This document shows positions 2,585 through 21,419 of a DNA stretch of 43,010 bases, one piece after another. The first letter of the stretch is position 1, and the number at the start of each line of letters is the position of its first letter. Source of the DNA: Rhodospirillales bacterium (lineage in GTDB: Bacteria > Pseudomonadota > Alphaproteobacteria > Acetobacterales > Acetobacteraceae); contig JANXVC010000086.1 in assembly GCA_025351925.1 (NCBI GenBank), forward strand, positions 1 to 43,010, given 5' to 3'. The translations under genes and the position numbers were made by a program. Below the pieces are notes generated by a model. That model did no database searches and was not told the DNA's origin. It saw only the letters and a list, made by a program, of their open reading frames with translations.

Positions 2585-3385
2585 ATGGTGCCACGCGGCC
2601 TGCTGCTTTTGCTTGTGCTGAGCGCCTGCGCGACCCGGCCTGCGCCGCCGTCTGCCGCTGTTGCACAACCCGCGATCGCGTTGGATCAACACGTGGCCGA
2701 GTTCGCGAAACGCCCGTTCGAGCCGTTCTCCCGCACCAACACGGTCGGCATCGCACTGCGGGAATGGCGTGGGTTCGGCAGCCTGGTGGACGACGATCCG
2801 CCGGATAGCCACCCGGTGCCACGCAGCCTGCGTCCCGACAAGCAGCCCGGCCTGTGGCAGCGCGTCGGCGAGTACTGGTGGCTCGGCCAGGACGCCGGGT
2901 CGCGGGAAAGCGAATGGACGAGCAAATATGACGAGTTCGGACAGCTCTATCAGGGGGACGCGCCCGCTTGGTCGGCAGCCTTCGTCTCGTATGTCATGCG
3001 CATGGCCGGGGCCGGAACGCGGTTCCCCTATTCGCCCCTGCATGCCGACTACATCAACGCCGCCGTGCAGGGCACGGGCGTGCTGCGTGCGGAGCGGCCC
3101 GAGGCCTATGCGCCGCAGCCCGGCGACCTGATCTGCGTCAGCCGTGGCCGTGCGCGAAGCATGCGGTTTGAGGACCTGTTGGGCGCGCGGTTTTTTGGAC
3201 ATTGCGACTTGGTGACGGCTGCGCAACCGGGTCAGCTCACGACCGTGGGCGGCAACGTGGGCGGCGGCGTCACGATGAAGCACGTGCCGACGACCATCGC
3301 CGGAATGCTGGCAGACACGGAGGGGCGCGTGGTCGATGCACGCTATGACTGGTTCGTCGTGCTCCGCGTACTGTACAACGAGTAG
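2585..3385 (+). CDS. DUF2272 domain lipoprotein
   Basis: The 266-aa product begins MVPRGLLLLLVLSACATRP, a lipoprotein signal with lipobox LSAC, so it is probably anchored in the outer or inner membrane facing the periplasm. The body carries the DUF2272 pattern: AWSAAFVSYVMRMAG, then FPYSPLHADYI, PQPGDLICVSRG, GHCDLVT and the GGNVGGGVTMK loop. The order (small-residue helix, PGDL strand, H-x-D strand) recalls NlpC/CHAP-like hydrolases, but a catalytic Cys is not evident and the function is unknown. ATG 2585 is chosen over an upstream in-frame start at 2549 because it opens the signal peptide. Confidence 0.85.
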   Translation: MVPRGLLLLLVLSACATRPAPPSAAVAQPAIALDQHVAEFAKRPFEPFSRTNTVGIALREWRGFGSLVDDDPPDSHPVPRSLRPDKQPGLWQRVGEYWWLGQDAGSRESEWTSKYDEFGQLYQGDAPAWSAAFVSYVMRMAGAGTRFPYSPLHADYINAAVQGTGVLRAERPEAYAPQPGDLICVSRGRARSMRFEDLLGARFFGHCDLVTAAQPGQLTTVGGNVGGGVTMKHVPTTIAGMLADTEGRVVDARYDWFVVLRVLYNE

Positions 3386-3389
3386 GCTT

Positions 3390-3800
3390 TTAACGCTGGC
3401 GCCAGGGCAGCGCCTCGGCTTTCCAGCCGGCGACGGCGCCACGATGGCCGTCCTGGTTCGGCGGCCCCTCGAAACCGTCGGTAATGTTGTAGGCGTGCGG
3501 AAAGCCGGCGGATTGCGCCGCCTGTGCCGCCGCCAGACTGCGGACGCCGCTCCGGCACAGGAAATACAGCTTGTGGGACGGTGTCAGACCAGCCTGCACC
3601 ATCTGGTCGATAAAACCCGTATTCACCTGCATCGACGGAAACAGCTGCCACGGGATCAGCACGGGCTGCTTGTCGGCCGCCGTCAGATCTGGCAGGCCGA
3701 CATAGGCCCACTCGGCATCCGTGCGCACATCGACGATCTGGGCCTCCGCATCGGTCCGGAGCGCATCCCAAACCTGCGTTGGGCTGACGTTCTCGATCAT
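3390..3800 (-). CDS. Rhodanese-like domain protein
   Basis: A single-domain 136-aa rhodanese. It shows IVDVRTDAEWAYVGLPDL at the N-terminal side and the active-site loop FLCRSGVRS, with the sulfur-carrying Cys at about residue 82 in a six-residue CRSGVR loop, followed by the characteristic AYNITDGFEGP. Such proteins transfer sulfane sulfur; the acceptor cannot be inferred here. AGGAGG stands before ATG 3800. It is convergent with the DUF2272 gene, with only four bases between the stops. Confidence 0.9.
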   Translation of the reverse strand: MIENVSPTQVWDALRTDAEAQIVDVRTDAEWAYVGLPDLTAADKQPVLIPWQLFPSMQVNTGFIDQMVQAGLTPSHKLYFLCRSGVRSLAAAQAAQSAGFPHAYNITDGFEGPPNQDGHRGAVAGWKAEALPWRQR

Positions 3801-3839
3801 GCTACGTTCCTCCTCAAGCTGCTTTGAAGGTGCTCCAGC

Positions 3840-3935
3840 ATGGCCGAAAGCGCAAATCCTGCTGCGTCGCCAGCCCGCGGTCCGGTTGGCGACCTGATGG
3901 AGATGATCGGCAACAACCGACGCCGTCTTAGATGA
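3840..3935 (+). CDS. Possible 31-residue small protein
   Basis: An ATG preceded by GAAGG at about eight bases opens a 31-codon frame whose product starts MAESANPAASPARGPVGD and ends in a basic NNRRRLR. It fills most of the gap between the divergently transcribed rhodanese gene and the 3' end of the glycosyltransferase gene. I do not recognise it, there is no membrane segment, and a frame this short could occur by chance. The ribosome site is the main argument for it. Confidence 0.25.
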   Translation: MAESANPAASPARGPVGDLMEMIGNNRRRLR

Positions 3936-3943
3936 GCTGACCG

Positions 3944-5164
3944 CTAGCCCGGCACCAAATCGTCAATTAGCCGCGTGTAGCCGAGCAGGTGGTCCTCCAT
4001 CCGCAAATGCTTGGTGGCGTACGCCCGGGCGCCAAGACGCAGGCTGGCTGCGCGATCAGTGTCTTCGAGCATTTCTTGAATGCGCATCGACAGGGCGGTG
4101 GGGTCGAGGAACGGGGTGAGCAGGCCAGTCTGGCCGTGCCGCACGAATTCCTGCACCGGTGCGGTGTCACTGGCCACGATGGCGCAGCCGACGGCGAGCG
4201 CCTCACGCAGCGACCACGACGCGACGAACGGATAGGTGAGATAGACGTGCGCGTCCGACCGCTGCAACAGGCGGAGATAGTCGGCATAGTCCATTCGACC
4301 GCAGAAATGGACGCGGTCCAGATCGAGCGACGGCCCGACCTCACGCAGCATGTGCTCCCGCCAAGTGCTTTCTTTCAGGCGTGCGCCGTAGCTGACGCCG
4401 TCGCTGCCGACCAGCGCCACCCTCACGTCCGGCCGGGCGCGCAACAGTGACGGCAATGCGCGCATTATAATGTGGAAGCCGCGATACGGCTCGAGGTCGC
4501 GTGCGACGTAGGTGACGAGCTTTTCGCCGGGCTGCACGGTCAATGGGCCGTGCTGGAAGATTTGGTCCATCGCGTCGGGAGCGGGACGGCAGATGTCGAG
4601 GTTCACGCCCTCCGGCAGGATGGAAATGCGTTCGCGCGCCCAGCCAGGATAGGTCGAGCGTTGAAAATGCGTGGGGGTTATGCCTTGGCCGGGATTGTCG
4701 AGCGCCAGCATATTCACCGCGTTCTTGGCCCGAACACGGGACAGAGCGTCCGGCACCGTCTGAAACTCAGGATCAAAGTTAACGTCGAACCCTTTGAGAT
4801 TGTAATAGAATTCGTAATATCCGAGATTTGGAGCGTCGGGCCAGATGTCCCCGAGGTTCAGCATCTCACCCCAGCCTTGATGACCGATGATAATGTCAGG
4901 CTGAAAGCCAAGGGTTTTAAGGTTTGACGCCACTTGCCCAACGCTTTGGGCTCGTGACATAGCCTGATCGAACTCCTGCGCATCGCGGTGAGTGGACGGG
5001 TTGAGTTCGCTGGGCCCGCGATACGTTGCCTTGCGCACCCCGGAGATGAAGTTGGCGTTTTCCTGGGTAATGAAAATCAGTTCATGCTCGCCCGAGGCTG
5101 CCAAATGCCGCAGGATATGCAGGAACTGGCCGGGAAAGTTTTGATGGACAAATAGGAACCGCAA
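3944..5164 (-). CDS. Glycosyltransferase, GT4 (GT-B) family
   Basis: A 406-aa GT-B enzyme. The N-terminal Rossmann half starts MRFLFVHQNFPGQFLHI and includes DIIIGHQGWGE. The C-terminal half carries YVARDLEPYRGFHIIMRAL, VALVGSDGVSYG and a donor-binding region SLREALAVGCAIVASDTA followed by PVQEFV, with the two glutamates of the E-x7-E-like motif. It would transfer a nucleotide-activated sugar to an unknown acceptor on the cytoplasmic face. The start lies 15 bases after the stop of the ChW-like gene, so it is probably the last gene of the T1SS/glycosyltransferase operon. Confidence 0.9.
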   Translation of the reverse strand: MRFLFVHQNFPGQFLHILRHLAASGEHELIFITQENANFISGVRKATYRGPSELNPSTHRDAQEFDQAMSRAQSVGQVASNLKTLGFQPDIIIGHQGWGEMLNLGDIWPDAPNLGYYEFYYNLKGFDVNFDPEFQTVPDALSRVRAKNAVNMLALDNPGQGITPTHFQRSTYPGWARERISILPEGVNLDICRPAPDAMDQIFQHGPLTVQPGEKLVTYVARDLEPYRGFHIIMRALPSLLRARPDVRVALVGSDGVSYGARLKESTWREHMLREVGPSLDLDRVHFCGRMDYADYLRLLQRSDAHVYLTYPFVASWSLREALAVGCAIVASDTAPVQEFVRHGQTGLLTPFLDPTALSMRIQEMLEDTDRAASLRLGARAYATKHLRMEDHLLGYTRLIDDLVPG

Positions 5165-11170: not shown

Positions 11171-12556
11171 TCACGGCTCGCGCATCCCGTCCATGGCAAC
11201 GGGAAGCACGCGGCTCAGCAGGTAGCCAACCACCGTCCGCTCGCCCACCTTGATGTCCGCCGTGATCGGCATGCCCGGCGTCACTCGGAAGCCCGGAGGC
11301 GTCCCATGCAGCTTAATGTTGTCCATCGTTATCCGGCTCCGATAGAAGGCTGGGGCGTTGCCGGCCTGGTTCTGCTGGACACCGCGCTGCTTCTCATCCG
11401 GATTGCTGGTGAAGCTATCGGCACTGACGACACGTACCGTGCCTTCTGCTGCGCCGTATTGGGTAAACGGGAAGGTGTCGAACTTCACCATCACAGTGTT
11501 TCCAGGATGAACGAAACCGGCGTCCATCCCCGAAATATTGGTTTCGACCTCCAACGGCGCATCGACCGGTACTAGCGTGAGAAACTGCTCGCCTGACTGC
11601 AACACCGAACCCGGCGAGACCTTGGCAATATTGAGAACAATCGAGTCCTGCTCTGCTCGCAATTCCACCAGTTGCCGCCGGAGATCCGCCTTGTTCAGGT
11701 TCTCCCGCGCGTCATTCAGCTTGCGGCCTTGGTCTGTCAAATCCTGGCTCACCTGGCCACGCCACTGCTGATTATAGCCGTCGCGTTCAGCCTGCATGGC
11801 CTGCAGGTCGCGCGCTGCCTGCTCCACCTGGTTGGTTGCGTTGCTCAGGCCCCGCTTGACCTCGAGACGGCTGTCCGTCGCGGCCAACCGGTTGATCTGG
11901 CTGCCAACCTGCAGCCGCTCCAATTCGATACGTTTACGCTCCAACTCTTCTGCGACTTTCAGCCGTTCAGAGTAGGCTTCGCGGTCAGACAATGCCCGCT
12001 GTATCTGACTCTGCAGACTATTTATCTTCTGCGTGTAGTTCTCGTTCTTGAAGCCGCGCTCGGCCTGGCGCTGCAGGAAGATCGCTCCCTGCAGTAGAGC
12101 GAGCGGACTGCCGTCCTTCGGAGTGTATGTCGTGCCGGACGCCTCAGCCTGCAGCCGCTCGACCTCGGTCGATAGACTGGCAACTTGAGACTCCAGCGCG
12201 CTAGCGTCCGCGGTAGCAAACGTCGGATCAAGCCGGGCGAGAATGTCGCCTTTATGCACGACCTGGCCCTCTCTGACATCGATAGAGCGAACGATTGCCG
12301 TCTCAAGCGGCTGAACGACACTGGTCGCTGATTGGGCGACGACCTTGCCCTGGGAAGTAACGACCTTATCAATCGGGATTAATGCCGCAGCGCTGATGCA
12401 GGCCGCCGCGAGGGAGCATACAACCCAGATCGTGCCCCGCGCTCCATGGAGTGTGGGCGCAACGGTGAGCGCCGCCGTCGGGGAGTGAAATTCCAACAAT
12501 CCCGGAAGGGCGATAGCATCCCTTTTATTCAGATTGCGAACGGCTAGCTGAGCCAT
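11171..12556 (-). CDS. HlyD-family type I secretion periplasmic adaptor
   Basis: A 461-aa membrane fusion protein. A single N-terminal membrane segment (TIWVVCSLAAACISAAALIP, about 42-61) is followed by the first half of the lipoyl/barrel-sandwich domain (TSVVQPLETAIVRSIDVREG). A long coiled coil rich in Leu, Glu, Arg and Gln occupies about 110-310. The second lipoyl half and beta-barrel (LQSGEQFLTLVPVDAPLEVE) and a C-terminal YLLSRVLP signature of HlyD/PrtE proteins complete it. It would link the ABC transporter in the inner membrane to a TolC-like channel, which is not in this window. GGAG precedes the ATG. Confidence 0.93.
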   Translation of the reverse strand: MAQLAVRNLNKRDAIALPGLLEFHSPTAALTVAPTLHGARGTIWVVCSLAAACISAAALIPIDKVVTSQGKVVAQSATSVVQPLETAIVRSIDVREGQVVHKGDILARLDPTFATADASALESQVASLSTEVERLQAEASGTTYTPKDGSPLALLQGAIFLQRQAERGFKNENYTQKINSLQSQIQRALSDREAYSERLKVAEELERKRIELERLQVGSQINRLAATDSRLEVKRGLSNATNQVEQAARDLQAMQAERDGYNQQWRGQVSQDLTDQGRKLNDARENLNKADLRRQLVELRAEQDSIVLNIAKVSPGSVLQSGEQFLTLVPVDAPLEVETNISGMDAGFVHPGNTVMVKFDTFPFTQYGAAEGTVRVVSADSFTSNPDEKQRGVQQNQAGNAPAFYRSRITMDNIKLHGTPPGFRVTPGMPITADIKVGERTVVGYLLSRVLPVAMDGMREP

Positions 12557-12620
12557 TGAAGTCTCCGTCGAGCGGCTATGCAGGCAGCCGGTGTTTCATT
12601 CTCAAACGCTGCAGGCCGAA

Positions 12621-12637
12621 CGCCTGATAACCAGGCG
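12621..12637. repeat. Intercistronic hairpin between the ABC transporter and hlyD genes
   Basis: CGCCTG-N5-CAGGCG, a perfect 6-bp stem, sits in the 105-base gap between the ABC transporter stop (12662) and the HlyD start (12556). There is no U-run on the transcribed strand, so it is more likely an mRNA stability or processing structure than a terminator. Confidence 0.3.
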
Positions 12638-12661
12638 AGACCAATGCGCCGTACAAGCCGT

Positions 12662-14944
12662 CTAATCGCCTTGGGCGAGAACAGGCACGAGCGGCGGTGG
12701 CCGTCCCATCGCCCCGTCGAGGTGACGATTCTGCTGCGACCACAGCATCTTGTAGATTGCGCAACGCTCCAACAGGACACGATGCGGCGCCATGTCCACT
12801 ACAGTGCCCTTGTCCATCACCAAGATCAGGTTGCAGTCGATCAGCGATGACAGGCGGTGCGAGACGATCACCATCGTGCGCCCCTTACCCAGGCGGGTCA
12901 GGTTGGCATTGACGAGGGCCTCGCTCTCGGGATCAAGCGCACTGGTTGCTTCGTCCAAGATCATCAGCCGAGGATCCGCGATCACTGCACGGGCAATTGC
13001 TAGACGCTGCCGCTGCCCGCCCGATAGGTTGGCCGAGCCCTCCTCGATCCACGTATCATAGCCCTGCGGCAGGCGCTCGATGAACTCCTCAGCGCCGGCG
13101 AGTCGGGACGCCTTGATGACATCCTCAAGCGTCAGCCCGGGGCGTCCGGCGGTGACGTTGTCCCGCACTGTGCCGCGGAACAGGAAGTTGTCCTGCAACA
13201 CCACGCCGAAACTCCGGCGCAGATGGGTCAGGTTGATCTCCCGCAACTCAACTCCGTCTATCTTGAGGAATCCGCTATACTCACGGTTAATGCCCTGCAG
13301 CAACCGTGTAAGGGTGCTTTTACCGGAGCCGCTTCGGCCGACTACCCCCAGCATGGTCCCTGCCGGAATCTCAAAACTGACCTTATCGAGCGCCGGAAGC
13401 TTTGAGCCCGGATAGGTGAAAGTCAGGCCTTCGAAAGTCACGTCACCACTGAATTTCGGCCGCAGGCCACCCTGCATCGCAGCCGTCTCGTTTGGATTGT
13501 TCAGCACGTTCCCGACCTGACCGATTGAGGCGCGCACGTCCTCAAAGTCCTCGACCAAGCGCGCCAGACCTACCAGCGGCTGCGTCACGCGGCTGCCCAG
13601 CATCATGAACGCGACCAGACCGCCGACCGCAATGCCCGTCGTGTCCTGCATCGCTATGTAGGCGCCGATCATAATCACGCCGCGCTGGATGAACGACTCG
13701 ATTGGGCTGATGATCGTCTGCGGCCAGTTCGCCAAACGGCCAGCCTGCAGCTTCAGCTTGCCAGCGTGCGCCGTTCGTTCATCCCATTCGGCCCGGCGCT
13801 GCGGCTCAAGGGCCAGCGACTTTACCGTCCGAATGCCGTGCACCGTCTCGACCATGGTGCTGGCTTTTTCCGACTCGGCTATCGTCAGTTTGCCGATCAC
13901 CTTCCGCAACGCCGGCAAGAAGGCCAGGATCACCAGGGCAATGATGACAGCGCATACCAGCACGATCCACGCCAGCGTGGGCTCCATCCAGAACAGCAAC
14001 GGCAACAAGAACACCAGGGTGAACATGTCGAGGAAGGTGCCCATGAGCTTTCCGGTTAGGAACTCACGAATCTTCCAGACCTGCATCAGGCGATAGTTGA
14101 TCTGTCCGGCTGGGTTCTTTTCGAAGTAGTCGAGCGGCAATCCAAGCAGCCGGTTAAACACGTGCAGATGCAGCCGGGCGTCGACCCGGGTGGAGACGAC
14201 CTGTACCAGTTCCCGCCGGGCATAGCCCAGCAGCATCTCATAGGCGGACGTAATCAGCAGAATGCTGCTGAGCAGCACCAGTGTGGACAGGCTGTGGTGC
14301 GTTACGACCCGGTCCACGACGGTCATTACCAGCAGAGGTGGGATGATCGTGAGGGCGCTAAGCGTAATGGACGCGATGCTGACATCCCGGAGCGAGCGCT
14401 TTTCCTTAGCGACCAGGCCCATAAGCCAACCCAGCGAGAAGCGCCGTTCGCTTTCAGCCTCGCCGCGAATACGCTGGATGAGCAACACCTCGCCGCCCCA
14501 GGCCTGCGACAGCCGCAGCTCATCGACCGGCATGGCAGGGTCGCTCGACGATGCAGCGGGATCGCGGATCCAGATGATGTTGCGGCCGGGATCACTGCCT
14601 ACCAGCAATCCGGCGCCGCCATCCTTCAGCAGCAACACGATTGGCGGAACCGGGCGTTCGCTGCCCTGCAGCTTGAAAAGCTGTTTCCAGCGGACGCGCT
14701 CGGCCCTGGCGGCTAGTCCCTGATCCCGTGCCCAAGCGACCAAGGACGCTGGCGATGGCGTCGTCTCATTGGGAGCGGGACGGAAGTCCTCGAGATGCAA
14801 ATCCAGCCCGTGATGCCGCGCGACCGCTATGACGGCCGTCAGCCGATTTTGCGCAGCGGCACCAGGCCGATCGCTGCCGATGGTTCCAGTATTGATCAGC
14901 GACGAGGCGTCGCTGCTGGGAGCGGTCGAGGCGAGTTGATCCAC
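12662..14944 (-). CDS. Type I secretion ABC transporter (permease/ATPase) with C39-like domain
   Basis: A 760-aa HlyB/LapB-like protein. Residues about 30-165 resemble a peptidase C39 domain, but no Q-x-D/E-C-G/A catalytic motif is present, as in the C39-like domains of HlyB-type exporters that bind rather than cleave substrates. The transmembrane domain (about 180-450) shows TLSALTIIPPLLVMTVVDRV and the LDYFEKNPAGQI intracellular loop. The ATPase follows: Walker A GRSGSGKST near 536, signature LSGGQRQRLAIARA and Walker B LMILDEATSALD. Start GTG 14944 has AAGGAA upstream. It is the first gene of the minus-strand island. The substrate is unknown: no RTX protein is in the window. Confidence 0.93.
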   Translation of the reverse strand: MDQLASTAPSSDASSLINTGTIGSDRPGAAAQNRLTAVIAVARHHGLDLHLEDFRPAPNETTPSPASLVAWARDQGLAARAERVRWKQLFKLQGSERPVPPIVLLLKDGGAGLLVGSDPGRNIIWIRDPAASSSDPAMPVDELRLSQAWGGEVLLIQRIRGEAESERRFSLGWLMGLVAKEKRSLRDVSIASITLSALTIIPPLLVMTVVDRVVTHHSLSTLVLLSSILLITSAYEMLLGYARRELVQVVSTRVDARLHLHVFNRLLGLPLDYFEKNPAGQINYRLMQVWKIREFLTGKLMGTFLDMFTLVFLLPLLFWMEPTLAWIVLVCAVIIALVILAFLPALRKVIGKLTIAESEKASTMVETVHGIRTVKSLALEPQRRAEWDERTAHAGKLKLQAGRLANWPQTIISPIESFIQRGVIMIGAYIAMQDTTGIAVGGLVAFMMLGSRVTQPLVGLARLVEDFEDVRASIGQVGNVLNNPNETAAMQGGLRPKFSGDVTFEGLTFTYPGSKLPALDKVSFEIPAGTMLGVVGRSGSGKSTLTRLLQGINREYSGFLKIDGVELREINLTHLRRSFGVVLQDNFLFRGTVRDNVTAGRPGLTLEDVIKASRLAGAEEFIERLPQGYDTWIEEGSANLSGGQRQRLAIARAVIADPRLMILDEATSALDPESEALVNANLTRLGKGRTMVIVSHRLSSLIDCNLILVMDKGTVVDMAPHRVLLERCAIYKMLWSQQNRHLDGAMGRPPPLVPVLAQGD

Positions 14945-15685: not shown

Positions 15686-15988
15686 TCAGGTTAGCCGAAA
15701 CCGCGCGGCAGCCACCGGGTCTGATTGAAGCGCTGCCCTGACCGCAAACTCCGCGGTGGCATCACCTGTCACAAGCACACGGTGAAAGAACGTGACCTCG
15801 CCCCGGGCCCGCCGGAGAAACAGTTGCCCGAACGTTTCGGCGGCAGGGGTGCGCTGCACGCAACAGCCACAGCCGACGCCATGGCTGAGCTCTCGACCGA
15901 AATCTTCATTCAACACGAAGTCGCCGTCGCGCCTGTCGGAGTGCGTGCCGAAAACAATGGGAATACGCGAGTCAAACATCAGTGCCAT
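15686..15988 (-). CDS. Short CobW/G3E-like protein without a P-loop
   Basis: A 100-aa protein. Its segments follow the order of G3E-family (CobW) metallochaperone GTPases: VLNEDFGREL resembles the N-E-F-G switch region, GVGCGCCVQRTPAAETFGQL resembles the metal-binding C-x-C-C and following helix, FFHRVLVTGDATAEFAVRA resembles the D-R-V-V-I-E-T-T-G strand and helix, and SDPVAAARFRL resembles the closing L-x2-D-P-x-L-x2-R-Y-x-L. The Walker A lysine, the T-T-G aspartate/threonine set and the C-terminal domain are absent, so GTP hydrolysis is unlikely. It is divergent from the ArsR-methyltransferase gene. Start ATG 15988 or 15979; neither has a clear ribosome site. Family placement is my inference. 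Confidence 0.5.
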   Translation of the reverse strand: MALMFDSRIPIVFGTHSDRRDGDFVLNEDFGRELSHGVGCGCCVQRTPAAETFGQLFLRRARGEVTFFHRVLVTGDATAEFAVRAALQSDPVAAARFRLT

Positions 15989-15997
15989 AGCATAGAC

Positions 15998-16013
15998 ATA
16001 AGGATGTCTTTAT
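15998..16013. promoter_or_regulatory. Candidate operator of the ArsR-methyltransferase regulator
   Basis: ATAAGGATGTCTTTAT is an imperfect palindrome (12 of 16 positions symmetric) lying between the divergent CobW-like gene (start 15988) and the ArsR-methyltransferase gene (start 16028). An overlapping, wider inverted repeat, GACATAA-N13-TTATGTC (15995-16021), is perfect. The AT-rich TATATTATG just downstream is a plausible -10 element. ArsR-family repressors commonly bind such 12-2-12-like or similar palindromes at their own promoter, so autoregulation is likely. The bound factor is inferred. Confidence 0.55.
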
Positions 16014-16027
16014 ATTATGTCCAGTGA

Positions 16028-16999
16028 ATGGATGCACTCCTAACAGCGCTACGTGCCACGGCCGAGCCGACCCGGCTGCGGCTGCTCGCCCTCGCGGCGC
16101 GCGGCGCGTTTTGCGTCATGGAATTCACCGAGATCCTCGGGCAGAGCCAACCCCGCCTGTCGCGACATCTCAAGCTGCTCTGTGACGCTGGGCTGCTGGC
16201 GCGGGTGCGGGAGGGCGCGAACGTCTGGTTCGGTCTGCCGCCGGATGCCGGACTGATCCAGGAGCTGCTGGCCCGGCTGCCCGAGGATGATCCCGTGCTG
16301 TCCGCCGATCGCCGTGGCGCCGCCCGCGTTTTGGCGGAGCGCGCGCGCGTCGCGTCGGAAAGTTTTCGCCGGCAGGGCGCGGATTGGGACGAGATGCGGG
16401 CGCTGGGTTTGCCGGCAGCCGACGTTGAGGCGGCGATACTGCGGTTGCTGCCGGGCGCACAGCTGGGCCGGGTGCTGGATATCGGCACCGGAACCGGTCG
16501 GACGCTCGAACTCTTGGCACCGCGCGTGTCCGCTGGGCTGGGCGTGGATGCGAGCCGGGCGATGCTGGCGCTGGCGCGGGCGCGGCTGGCCAGGCCGTCG
16601 CTCGCGCATTGCACGGTTCGCCAGGCGGACATGTATCGGCTGCCGCTGTCCGGCGGCTATGACGTTGTCGTGCTGCAGATGGTGCTGCACTACGCCGAAG
16701 ACCCGGACGCTGTCCTGGCCGAGGCCGCCCGCGTGCTGGCGCCAGGCGGCAGGCTAATTGTGGTTGACCTGGCCGGACATGACCGTGCCGACCTGACGGA
16801 GCGTCTGGCGCATCGCTGGCCTGGCTTCACCGATGCTGCCATGCAGGCGGCGTTGAGCCAGGTAGGCCTGCTGCCGGGAGCGCCTATGTCGGTGCCAGGC
16901 CCACTTGAGGTGCGGCTCTGGTCGGCTGCGATGCCGGACAATCTGGTGAACGCCGTTGCGACGGTTAATAGCTCTGAACTCATTTCTGAGGACGCTTGA
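16028..16999 (+). CDS. ArsR-family regulator fused to a SAM-dependent methyltransferase
   Basis: A 323-aa two-domain protein. Residues 1-95 are a winged helix-turn-helix of the ArsR type (TAEPTRLRLLALAARG, then the recognition helix SQPRLSRHLKLLCDAGLL). Residues about 140-260 are a class I methyltransferase with motif I VLDIGTGTGRTLELL, GLGVDASRAML and the acidic/aromatic VVVLQMVLHYAEDPD followed by VLAPGGRLIVVDLAGHD. ArsR proteins of this fused type in alphaproteobacteria lie next to methionine-cycle genes and are thought to sense S-adenosyl compounds (SahR-like). Here the gene overlaps metH by one base (TGATG), so it is almost certainly its transcriptional regulator. Confidence 0.88.
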   Translation: MDALLTALRATAEPTRLRLLALAARGAFCVMEFTEILGQSQPRLSRHLKLLCDAGLLARVREGANVWFGLPPDAGLIQELLARLPEDDPVLSADRRGAARVLAERARVASESFRRQGADWDEMRALGLPAADVEAAILRLLPGAQLGRVLDIGTGTGRTLELLAPRVSAGLGVDASRAMLALARARLARPSLAHCTVRQADMYRLPLSGGYDVVVLQMVLHYAEDPDAVLAEAARVLAPGGRLIVVDLAGHDRADLTERLAHRWPGFTDAAMQAALSQVGLLPGAPMSVPGPLEVRLWSAAMPDNLVNAVATVNSSELISEDA

Positions 17000-19900
17000 T
17001 GACTCGACCCCATTTGCTCGACGCGCTTCGTGACCAGGTGCTGCTGTGCGACGGCGGCATGGGCAGCCGTGTGCAGGCGCTGACGCTCGATATCGAGCGC
17101 GATTACTGGAATCAGGAGAACTGCACCGAGGTGCTGAACCTGTCGCGCCCCGACCTGGTGCGGGAGATCCATCGCGGCTACTTCGAGGCCGGCGCCGACA
17201 TGGTGGAGACCAACACATTTGGCGGCTCGCCGATCACCTTGGCCGAGTTTGACCTCGGCGAGCGGGCGCATGAGATCAACAAAGTCGCGGCCGAACTGGC
17301 GCGGGAGGCGGCTGACGGCTTCTCGGATGGGCGGCATCGCTGGGTGGTGGGCAGCATTGGGCCGGGCACCAAGCTGCCGTCGCTCGGCAATATCGCCTAT
17401 GATCCGCTGGAGGCGGCGCTCGCCGCACAGTCGCGCGGGCTGATTGCCGGCGGGGTCGATGCGATCCTGATCGAGACCTGCCAGGACACGCTGCAGATCA
17501 AGGCGGCGGTGAACGGCGCCAAGATCGCCCGGGCCGAGGCCGGCACCGACACGCCGATCTTTGTGCAGGTGACGGTCGAGACCACCGGCACTCTGCTGGT
17601 CGGACCCGATATCGCCGCCGCCGCCACAGTGATTCATGCGCTGGATGTGCCGCTGATCGGGCTGAACTGCGCGACGGGTCCGCAGGAGATGTCGGAGCAC
17701 GTGCGCTGGCTTGCGGCGAACTGGCCCGGGCTGATCTCGGTGCAGCCCAACGCCGGGTTGCCGGAGCTGGTCGATGGGCGGACGCACTATCCGCTGGATG
17801 CCGAGCAGATGGCCAGCTGGATGGAGCGGTTCATCCAGGAGGACGGGCTGAACCTGATCGGTGGCTGCTGCGGAACGGACACGCCGCATATCCGGGCGCT
17901 GGACGCCATGCTGCGCCGCCGGGGCGAGGGTTTTCGTCCCGCGCCGGTGCTGCGCAAGCCGGTCTGGGTGCCGAGCGTCGCCAGCCTGTATGGCCAGACG
18001 GCGCTGCGCCAGGAAAACAGCTATTTTTCCATCGGCGAGCGCTGCAACGCCAACGGGTCGAAGAAGTGGCGGGAATTACAGGAAAAAGGCGACTGGGACG
18101 GCTGCGTGTCGGTTGGGCGCGAGCAGGTCGCCGAGGGGTCCAACAGCCTGGACATCTGCACCGCCTTCGTCGGCCGCGACGAGGTCGCCGAGATGAACGA
18201 GGTGATCACCCGTTTCACCAGCAGCGTGAATTCGCCGCTGGTAATCGACAGCACGGAGACGATCGTGCTGGAGGCGGCGCTGCGACTGCACGGCGGCAAG
18301 CCGATCATCAACTCGATCAACTTCGAGGATGGCGAGGACGCGGCGCGCGACCGGCTGATTTTGGCGAAGAAGTTCGGGGCGGCGGTGATCGCGCTGACGA
18401 TCGACGAGACGGGCATGGCCAAGACGCCGGAGGCCAAGCTCGCCATCGCCCGGCGATTGGTGGAGTTCGCCTGCGATAAGCACGGCCTGCCGCAGTCGGA
18501 CCTGCTGATTGACCCCCTCACCTTTACCGTCGCGACCGGCAGCGAAGACGACCGGAAGCTCGGGCAGTGGACGCTGGAGGGCATCAAGCTGATCCGCGAC
18601 GCGTTCCCCGACATCCAGATCATCCTGGGGCTGTCGAACATCAGCTTCGGCCTCAACCCGGCGGCGCGCGCCGTGCTGAACTCGGTGTTCCTCGACCACG
18701 CGGTGCGCGCCGGCATGACGGGCGCCATCGTGCATGTGAGCAAGATCCGGCCGCTGCACCTGATCCCGCCCGAAGAGGTGCAGGTGGTCGAGGATCTGCT
18801 GTTCGACCGGCGACGCGAGGACTACGATCCGTTGCAAAAACTGCTGGAGATCTTCGCTGACCGCAAGCTGGCGGATGCGGTGAAGAAGGTCCGGGCTGAC
18901 ACAGTTGAGGGCCGTCTCAAGGACCGTATCGTCGATGGCGACCGCAAGGGACTGACGGAAGAGCTGGACGAGGCGATGCTGACCAACGCACCACTTGACA
19001 TCATTAACAACGTGTTGCTAGACGGCATGAAGGTGGTGGGTGAGCTGTTTGGCGCGGGCAAGATGCAGTTGCCGTTCGTGCTGCAGTCGGCGGAGACGAT
19101 GAAGGCGGCAGTGGCGCACCTCGAGCCGCACATGGAGCGGGTGGCCGGGCAGGAGAAGGGCACGATCGTGCTGGCCACCGTGAAGGGGGACGTGCACGAC
19201 ATCGGCAAGAACCTGGTCGATATTATTCTGACGAATAATGGCTACCGGGTGGTGAACCTGGGCATCAAGGTGCCGCTGGCTGACATGGTCGCGGCCGCGA
19301 AGCAGCATCAGGCGCACGCGATCGGCATGTCGGGGCTGCTGGTCAAGAGCACCGTCGTGATGCGGGAAAACCTCGAAGAGATGACGCGGCAGGGATTGGA
19401 GATCCCCGTAATGCTAGGCGGCGCCGCGCTGACCCGCAACTATGTCGAGGATGACTGCGTGCGGGCCTATGCCTCCGGGCGCGTCGCCTATGCGCGTGAT
19501 GCGTTCGACGGGCTGAACCTGATGGACCGGGTGACGGGCAACGGGTTTGACGACTATTTGGCGGCCATCCAGGCCAAGCGGTCCGGCAAGGCGCGCAACA
19601 CTCAGCGCACGCTGGGCCAGGCCGACCAGCGCGCCTTTCGCCCGGTCGATGTTGCCGCAGTGCAGGCGCGCCGCCGCCGGCTGACTGCGGACGTGCCGGC
19701 GCCCACGCCGCCGTTCTGGGGCGCCCGCATGATCGAGGCGGCACCCAAGGCGGTGATCCCGTTTCTGAATGAGCGGTCGCTGTATCAACTCCAGTGGGGC
19801 TTCCGGAAGCAGGGCAAGACGTTGGAGGACTTCCTGGGTTGGGCGAAGCAGGAGCTGCGCCCGGTCATGCGGCGGATGCTGTCGATTTGTGAGGCGGACA

Positions 19901-20487
19901 ACATCCTGCGGCCGCAAGCGCTGTACGGCTATTGGAAGGCCGCCGGCCAGGGCAACGACCTGATCGTGTTCGGCCAGGATGGTCAGACCGAGCTGTGCCG
20001 CTTTGCCCTGCCGCGGCAGCCGAAGGAGGACGGCGAGTGCATCGCCGACTTCTTCCGAGACGTGGACGACAGCGAGCGCGACGTGATCGGACTTCAAGTG
20101 GTCACCGTGGGGCAGAAGGCGTCCGACACGGCGCGGCTGTGGTTCGAGGATAACCGCTACCAGGACTACCTTTATCTGCACGGCCTCTCGGTCGAGGTTG
20201 CGGAGGCGATGGCCGAGTACACCCACAAGCGCATCCGGGCGGAGTTGGGCTATGCCGGGGAGGACGACCGCGACATTGAGCGCATGCTGTCGCAGCATTA
20301 CCGCGGGTCGCGCTACTCGTTCGGCTATCCGGCCTGCCCTAAGCTTGAGGATCAAGCGCCGTTGCTGCGTCTGCTGGATGCCGAGCGCATTGGCGTGTCG
20401 CTGTCGGATGAGTGGCAGCTGCATCCCGAGCAGTCCACCAGCGCCATCGTCGTGCTGAACCCGCAGGCGAAGTACTTCTCGGTATAG
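16999..20487 (+). CDS. metH: Cobalamin-dependent methionine synthase
   Basis: A full-length 1162-aa MetH, which methylates homocysteine from 5-methyltetrahydrofolate through enzyme-bound cobalamin. Homocysteine domain: LLCDGGMGSRVQ, zinc ligands in GLNCATGP (about 224) and GGCCGT (about 290-291). The pterin-binding domain follows (FSIGERCNANGSKKW, VIDSTE). The cobalamin domain has DVHDIGKN with the axial His near residue 733 and GMSGLLVKS. The C-terminal activation domain (RRMLSICEADNILRPQALYG, RGSRYSFGYPACP) allows reductive reactivation with SAM. ATG 16999 overlaps the regulator's TGA. metF, often next to this regulator in relatives, is not present here. Confidence 0.97.
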   Translation: MTRPHLLDALRDQVLLCDGGMGSRVQALTLDIERDYWNQENCTEVLNLSRPDLVREIHRGYFEAGADMVETNTFGGSPITLAEFDLGERAHEINKVAAELAREAADGFSDGRHRWVVGSIGPGTKLPSLGNIAYDPLEAALAAQSRGLIAGGVDAILIETCQDTLQIKAAVNGAKIARAEAGTDTPIFVQVTVETTGTLLVGPDIAAAATVIHALDVPLIGLNCATGPQEMSEHVRWLAANWPGLISVQPNAGLPELVDGRTHYPLDAEQMASWMERFIQEDGLNLIGGCCGTDTPHIRALDAMLRRRGEGFRPAPVLRKPVWVPSVASLYGQTALRQENSYFSIGERCNANGSKKWRELQEKGDWDGCVSVGREQVAEGSNSLDICTAFVGRDEVAEMNEVITRFTSSVNSPLVIDSTETIVLEAALRLHGGKPIINSINFEDGEDAARDRLILAKKFGAAVIALTIDETGMAKTPEAKLAIARRLVEFACDKHGLPQSDLLIDPLTFTVATGSEDDRKLGQWTLEGIKLIRDAFPDIQIILGLSNISFGLNPAARAVLNSVFLDHAVRAGMTGAIVHVSKIRPLHLIPPEEVQVVEDLLFDRRREDYDPLQKLLEIFADRKLADAVKKVRADTVEGRLKDRIVDGDRKGLTEELDEAMLTNAPLDIINNVLLDGMKVVGELFGAGKMQLPFVLQSAETMKAAVAHLEPHMERVAGQEKGTIVLATVKGDVHDIGKNLVDIILTNNGYRVVNLGIKVPLADMVAAAKQHQAHAIGMSGLLVKSTVVMRENLEEMTRQGLEIPVMLGGAALTRNYVEDDCVRAYASGRVAYARDAFDGLNLMDRVTGNGFDDYLAAIQAKRSGKARNTQRTLGQADQRAFRPVDVAAVQARRRRLTADVPAPTPPFWGARMIEAAPKAVIPFLNERSLYQLQWGFRKQGKTLEDFLGWAKQELRPVMRRMLSICEADNILRPQALYGYWKAAGQGNDLIVFGQDGQTELCRFALPRQPKEDGECIADFFRDVDDSERDVIGLQVVTVGQKASDTARLWFEDNRYQDYLYLHGLSVEVAEAMAEYTHKRIRAELGYAGEDDRDIERMLSQHYRGSRYSFGYPACPKLEDQAPLLRLLDAERIGVSLSDEWQLHPEQSTSAIVVLNPQAKYFSV

Positions 20488-20531: not shown

Positions 20532-21419
20532 TTGGACCAGGTAGGACGCATCGCTGGCGGCACGATTGCCGTCGGCATCGGCGTGCTGGCGATGAAGTCG
20601 GCGGCCTGGTGGCTGACCGGCAGCGCGGCGCTGTACTCCGATGCGCTGGAGAGCGTCGTCAATGTGGTAGCGAGCCTGGTCGCCTTTGCAGCGCTGCGGC
20701 TAGCTGCAAGGCCGGCGGATGCGAACCATCCTTACGGGCACGACAAGGTCGAGTTTTTCGCAGCCGTGATCGAGGGCGTGCTGATCATCGTGGCGGCCGG
20801 ATCGATCCTGCAGCATGCGTGGGAGACCTGGAACCAGCCGGGGTCGCTGCAGCAGCCCTGGCTCGGCTTGGGGCTGAATGCCCTGTCCACGGTGATCAAT
20901 GCAGGCTGGGCCATCGTGCTGGTGCGGTCAGGCAAGCGGCATCGCTCCCCGGCGCTGGCGGCCGACGGGCAGCATCTGTGGACGGATGTGGTGACATCCG
21001 TTGGCATCACGGCCGGTCTGGTATTGGCAATACAGACCGGGATTCAGTGGCTCGACCCGGTGCTGGCCTTGGGGGTCGCCGCAAGCGTGCTGTGGTCCGG
21101 CGTGCGCCTGGTGACGGACAGCGTCGGCGGCCTGATGGACGCGGCGCCGGCGGGGGTCATCGTCGAGCGCATCCGGCTGCTGGTCGGTCAGCACGCGGAC
21201 GGAGCGATCGAGGCGCACGACCTGCGGACACGACACGCCGGGCGGCTGACCTACCTCGAATTTCACCTTGTGGTGCCCGGTGACATGCGGGTGGCCGAGG
21301 CGCACGCGATCTGCGACCGCATCGAGGCGGCGCTGAAGGCCGAGGTCGAGGGCCTGGTTATCACTATCCACGTCGAGCCCGAGCTGAAAGCCAAGCACAG
21401 CGGCGTGCTGGTGCTGTGA
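20532..21419 (+). CDS. Cation diffusion facilitator family transporter
   Basis: A 295-aa CDF antiporter with about six membrane segments. Visible are the metal-site helices AALYSDALESVVNVVAS and QHLWTDVVTSVGITAG (H-x3-D type), the conserved HPYGHDKVEFFAA loop, and a C-terminal cytoplasmic domain with TYLEFHLVVPGDMRVAEAH and a terminal VITIHVEPE. CDF proteins export zinc, iron, manganese or cobalt using the proton gradient; the metal cannot be fixed from sequence. The start is a TTG with AGGGG upstream, 44 bases after metH, so it is probably part of the same transcript. Confidence 0.9.
   Translation: MDQVGRIAGGTIAVGIGVLAMKSAAWWLTGSAALYSDALESVVNVVASLVAFAALRLAARPADANHPYGHDKVEFFAAVIEGVLIIVAAGSILQHAWETWNQPGSLQQPWLGLGLNALSTVINAGWAIVLVRSGKRHRSPALAADGQHLWTDVVTSVGITAGLVLAIQTGIQWLDPVLALGVAASVLWSGVRLVTDSVGGLMDAAPAGVIVERIRLLVGQHADGAIEAHDLRTRHAGRLTYLEFHLVVPGDMRVAEAHAICDRIEAALKAEVEGLVITIHVEPELKAKHSGVLVL

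Follow-up and report, generated by a model that had tools for sequence, protein, structure and literature searches.

The COG0523 proteins are a group of G3E GTPases that includes CobW, YjiA, YeiR, ZigA, ZagA and ZNG1 and is described by the Pfam models PF02492 and PF07683. In CobW, the tetrahedral metal site made by three cysteines assembles only with nucleotide bound (PMC7895991), and full-length COG0523 genes have been found elsewhere in clusters with zinc- and corrinoid-dependent methyltransferases (PMC2770081). COG0523 proteins without GTPase motifs are already known, and so are COG0523 genes that neighbour those of corrinoid methyltransferases. In the SahR regulon, the regulator sites are 20-bp palindromes, and the targets are sahR, metH, metF, ahcY and metK (PMC4239095). 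Here we describe, in a stretch of 43,010 nucleotides from an Acetobacteraceae genome (the window), a short gene of COG0523 descent which lies divergent from sahR and metH, and we compare it with these systems.

Results

A short gene maintained in Acetobacteraceae

The short G3E-derived gene, which encodes 100 aa without P-loop or CobW_C domain, lies at 15686..15988 on the minus strand, as supported by the ORF, its homologues, hhalign, dN/dS and an AlphaFold model. The frame opens with ATG, and its position agrees exactly with that given in the earlier note, which had read a CobW/G3E-like protein of this length from the sequence alone. The gene is real and under purifying selection: orthologues of similar length are present in most Acetobacteraceae relatives, with named homologues in Acidiphilium, Asaia, Roseomonas, Acidisphaera and Sabulicella (all Acetobacteraceae), and the dN/dS of close pairs is 0.10-0.33, which together rule out a chance ORF or a pseudogene.

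Members of the short family have 100-130 residues, compared with 350-450 for the COG0523 G3E GTPases. When the 100-aa protein was used in tblastn, matches were obtained in 55 of 100 relatives, and the family profile matched 208 of the 250 genomes searched in the same family, with full-length G3E proteins partly among the matches of both searches. Putative short genes in the metH-less genomes G449, G463, G511 and G512 turned out to be full-length G3E proteins. In a survey of the class covering 385 genomes, frames from outside the family were at least 314 aa among the matches listed, G158 excepted, and the short form therefore appears to be restricted to Acetobacteraceae. The G158 protein, from another alphaproteobacterial family (L133:5710-6507, 265 aa), is COG0523-like with CxCC and a C-terminal domain, and its P-loop is absent; here the GTPase site seems to have been lost independently, and metH is not adjacent. 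In G048, a very divergent ORF (L129:8639-9052, E 0.016) carries H-x3-C-x-C-C, is divergent from metH and is probably a further family member below the detection threshold.

Homology to the metal-binding half of COG0523 GTPases

Over residues 39-99, tblastn matched the short protein to full-length COG0523 proteins from other alphaproteobacteria with E values of about 1e-8 to 1e-10 and 40-47% identity, and an hhalign comparison in which 25 short members were aligned with six full-length COG0523 proteins gave a probability of 98.4 and an E value of 4e-15 over 69 columns. A profile search of the PDB returned YjiA as the sole match, weakly (E 0.43), a Pfam scan of the 100-aa protein alone gave no match, and scans of single members with Pfam and NCBIfam found the PRK11537 GTPase in 4 of 25 (best E 0.009). 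Judged by these comparisons, the short protein corresponds by homology to the half of COG0523/CobW G3E GTPases that binds metal, and the G3E ancestry claimed earlier was borne out by both the tblastn and the profile results. Structure prediction gave an AlphaFold model (pLDDT 87, pTM 0.76), but Foldseek against the PDB found nothing significant for it (YjiA at rank 22, TMq 0.49), and the fold is therefore assigned from the sequence evidence.

The earlier reading that P-loop and C-terminal domain are missing was confirmed. The Walker A motif GxxGxGK(T/S) is absent from the window protein and from every member of our two alignments (A1 and A4), and among homologues in the same slot of the metH locus a P-loop is found only in the full-length protein of G040. 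The (S/T/N)KxD motif and CobW_C are missing as well: the window protein stops short of both, none is encoded downstream, and a search for remnants of the C-terminal domain downstream of short genes returned noise only. From these motif losses, GTPase activity and nucleotide-gated metal binding are expected to be absent from the short protein.

An invariant Cys cluster and an additional His

CxCC, the metal-binding motif of COG0523 proteins, is encoded as C40-G-C42-C43 at 15860..15871 (minus strand), and its three Cys are invariant in A1 and A4. The retention of C-x-C-C thus holds as noted earlier, and the cysteine variation that the earlier note would have taken against its own reading was not seen, the cysteines being constant across homologues. 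The invariant residues of A1 include D6, R8, H36, C40, C42, C43, R46, L56, R60, G63, D90 and R98, and A4 has the same core, with the N-terminal stretch missing in a few members. The family signature can be written as H-x3-C-x-C-C-x2-R ... LF-x2-R-x-R-G ... D-x7-R, in which the final pair corresponds to D90 and R98 of the window protein.

The His four residues ahead of the first Cys (H36, codon at 15881..15883, minus strand) is a feature beyond the motifs named in the initial reading. It is near-invariant, being present in 69 of the 70 distinct short members, with the remaining member interrupted by a contig end; this tally excludes L044 and L133, which lie outside the short family. At the same position, the full-length relatives have Leu, Met or Ile (9/9). 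N-E-D-F-G and V-T-G, which had been taken for G3E motifs, proved private to the window sequence and are not found in its orthologues, and NEDFG was dropped as a G3E base-binding motif since it is unconserved among them.

A predicted SahR operator and linkage to metH

Divergent from the short gene is a sahR-like gene (16028..16999, plus strand) for a 323-aa regulator with an ArsR HTH and a SAM-methyltransferase domain (Pfam HTH_5 and Methyltransf_11), followed by metH (16996..20487, plus strand), which encodes a cobalamin-dependent methionine synthase of 1163 aa with S-methyl_trans, Pterin_bind, B12-binding_2, B12-binding and Met_synt_B12 domains. The divergent methionine-cycle regulator of the earlier note was thus correct in kind and can be refined to a SahR-type ArsR/methyltransferase protein with an operator common to both genes; its methyltransferase domain is possibly the part that senses SAH/SAM. 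The homocysteine site of MetH is a zinc site, and the zinc-ligand motifs NCATG and GGCCG are present in the window protein. A CDF cation-efflux transporter gene (20532..21419, plus strand; PF01545, PF16916 and gene order) lies 3' of metH, here as in several relatives, and is a second metal gene nearby which possibly belongs to the neighbourhood. Type I secretion genes for an HlyD-type adaptor and an ABC protein (11171-14944 of the window) adjoin the short gene, and this pair also flanks it in many relatives, including G024 and G044, where the short gene is off metH.

The shared operator is a 20-bp palindrome, ACATAAGGATGTCTTTATAT, at 15996..16015, 8 nt from the start codon of the short gene. 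It has no other match in the 5.9-Mb genome, its chance expectation in the window is 0, and the palindrome ACATAAnnATATnnTTATGT is found in the intergenic region of relatives with adjacent sahR. The assignment as SahR-type was made by the description of a 20-bp palindrome and the adjacency of sahR. On this basis, we predict that the SahR regulon of Acetobacteraceae has the short gene as a new member.

The link to metH is tight, as gene order in relatives shows: homologues of the same length adjoin metH, and of the 48 genomes in the first set of relatives that carry the short gene, 45 (hand tally) have it divergent from sahR, metH or both. It lies away from metH in G015, G024 and G044, two of which have it adjoining type I secretion genes. 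In G015, the contig that carries it (L109:1467-1904) has neither sahR nor metH, and a full-length COG0523 GTPase is encoded about 0.8 kb away (2705-4120). sahR is missing from the locus, with the short gene still beside metH, in G051, Acidiphilium, G032, G012, G058 and G039. Because these lineages keep the arrangement, dependence on SahR is unlikely, and SahR as an obligate partner was set aside.

Co-occurrence points in the same direction. In a tally made by hand, the short gene was found in none of 16 metH-less Acetobacteraceae and in about 100 of 114 metH-bearing members, being absent from about 12; a Fisher test on nearly these counts, with kinship ignored, gave p ~1e-13. In genus g30, the short gene and metH are both present in G032 and both lacking in G490. 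Since about 12 metH-bearing members have no short gene, MetH can work without the short protein. By its activation domain, the MetH of alphaproteobacteria divides into two classes (about 140 vs about 430 bits to PF02965), and the Acetobacteraceae MetH proteins searched were of the low-scoring class only.

A full-length gene in the same slot

In G040, the slot at the metH locus and its operator ACATAAAGATATTGTTATGT hold a 376-aa frame instead of the short gene, and the encoded protein has the P-loop GSLGAGKTT, CxCC, ETTGLADP and CobW_C. In the MetH tree, all genomes with the short gene form a clade that excludes G040 (SH-aLRT 87). In a tree of the shared G3E core, which has only 74 columns and for which the full-length-in-slot case is one genome, 25 short proteins form one group (100/99) with the G040 slot protein as their nearest full-length sequence (98/87). 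Outgroup families have sahR near metH and no G3E gene in the stretch examined, except G186 (about 10 kb off). A full-length sister in the same slot under the same operator therefore points to a probable shortening of a G3E GTPase under SahR control. The simplest history is a single truncation, which probably gave the non-GTPase H-x3-CxCC protein, a conclusion that is supported, not proven, and the G040 slot gene is the apparent missing link. The short form is old and maintained, because dN/dS is 0.10-0.33, the Cys and His residues are invariant and no C-terminal residue is left downstream.

Discussion

We tentatively propose, with a probability of roughly 0.4, that the truncated COG0523 GTPase is a nucleotide-independent, zinc-binding accessory protein of MetH under the control of SahR. 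The suggestion of the earlier note, a metal carrier or sensor for a zinc- or cobalamin-dependent enzyme such as MetH, is supported in part. A helper role for MetH is probable because the short gene is still beside metH under the same predicted switch, and we infer that the protein binds zinc, needs no nucleotide for it and acts on MetH. In an ancestor of Acetobacteraceae, a COG0523-type G3E GTPase gene would have been placed divergent from sahR-metH under a SahR operator, and in the main lineage it may have been reduced to about 100 residues with loss of the P-loop, ETTG/GLADP, (S/T/N)KxD and CobW_C. The Cys triplet would have been kept and a His gained four residues ahead of the first Cys, and with this new His the short protein may bind an ion, most likely Zn(II), in a tetrahedral Cys3His site even when no GTP is present. 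The product would be a small protein that binds metal and partners MetH, for instance by supplying or protecting the zinc in the homocysteine-binding domain, and it would be made when high SAH takes SahR off the shared operator. The more specific reading of a dedicated MetH metallochaperone or metal guard, in which a GTP-gated switch became a constitutive Cys3His carrier and the ancestral GTPase persists in the G040 slot, seems doubtful.

Other explanations can be drawn from the same observations. The operator common to the short gene and sahR, together with a small size and a Cys/His cluster that fit a sensor, could indicate a metal- or thiol-responsive regulator, that is, a small switch which modulates the activity of SahR or MetH and delivers no metal. 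We consider this unlikely, since a DNA-binding domain was not found in the short protein and the gene lies beside metH in sahR-less loci, hence SahR is no obligate partner. A helper on the cobalamin side, which would load or guard the corrinoid or reactivate MetH with its Cys cluster on cobalt, would suit the finding of the short gene only in genomes with B12-dependent MetH, and CobW itself handles Co(II) (PMC7895991). However, zinc is preferred by the CxCC of most COG0523 proteins, and a corrinoid-binding feature is absent from the short protein. MetH reactivation is normally served by flavodoxin or ferredoxin systems, and such a helper is therefore improbable.

The adjacency to metH might also be inherited synteny without functional meaning, the protein being a general zinc buffer or some other metal protein, as could be argued from the three genomes with the gene off metH, two of them adjoining type I secretion genes, and from the CDF efflux gene often found 3' of metH. 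This is rather unlikely, since the linkage to metH has persisted although the remaining flanking genes turn over and the protein has diverged extensively, and both the joint absence with metH in G490 and the shared operator speak against it. Least probable by far is a functionless, decaying relic of a GTPase: although the nucleotide-binding site is lost, the gene changes more rapidly than sahR and metH do, and some genomes are without it, decay is contradicted by dN/dS of 0.10-0.33 and by the family-wide invariant Cys and His, and the lost C-terminal part leaves no residue downstream.

The zinc-binding MetH accessory that we favour would have arisen in what can be seen as a natural experiment, in which the metal motif was kept, the GTPase dropped and a candidate ligand added, with an apparent full-length sister in the same slot. 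It bears on why COG0523 proteins need GTP for metal and on whether the GTPase is dispensable for serving a client. It also offers a first link to function for a conserved protein family that has no name and is found in Acetobacteraceae such as Acidiphilium, Asaia and Roseomonas. A truncated form at sahR-metH that retains CxCC and gains a His was found neither in the family-model libraries nor in the open-access papers searched, the literature searched contained no MetH metallochaperone, and the accessible part of the text of PMC4239095 on the SahR regulon names no cobW-like or Acetobacter target.

Among described proteins, Rv0106 of Mycobacterium tuberculosis resembles the short family in being COG0523-derived with its GTPase motifs lost (PMC2770081). 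In Rv0106, CxSC replaces the canonical CxCC and control is by Zur, whereas the short family has kept CxCC with all its Cys, showing no Rv0106-like loss of the second one, has gained a His, is predicted to be regulated by SahR and lies beside metH. COG0523 subfamily 13, beside mtaABC/ramM, shares the link to zinc- and corrinoid-dependent methyltransferases (PMC2770081), but its members are full-length GTPases, mostly archaeal, with no truncation and no metH/sahR link. The locus is like the described SahR regulon in its 20-bp palindrome and in having sahR and metH, which are core members (PMC4239095). With the COG0523 GTPases in general, the short family shares CxCC and the R after it, the helix LF-x2-R-x-R-G and, at the end of the subdomain, D-P-x4-A-R-F/Y-R-L; in contrast to them, it is without Walker A, ETTG/GLADP, (S/T/N)KxD, CobW_C and the His-rich loop, and adds a near-invariant His four residues ahead of the Cys cluster.
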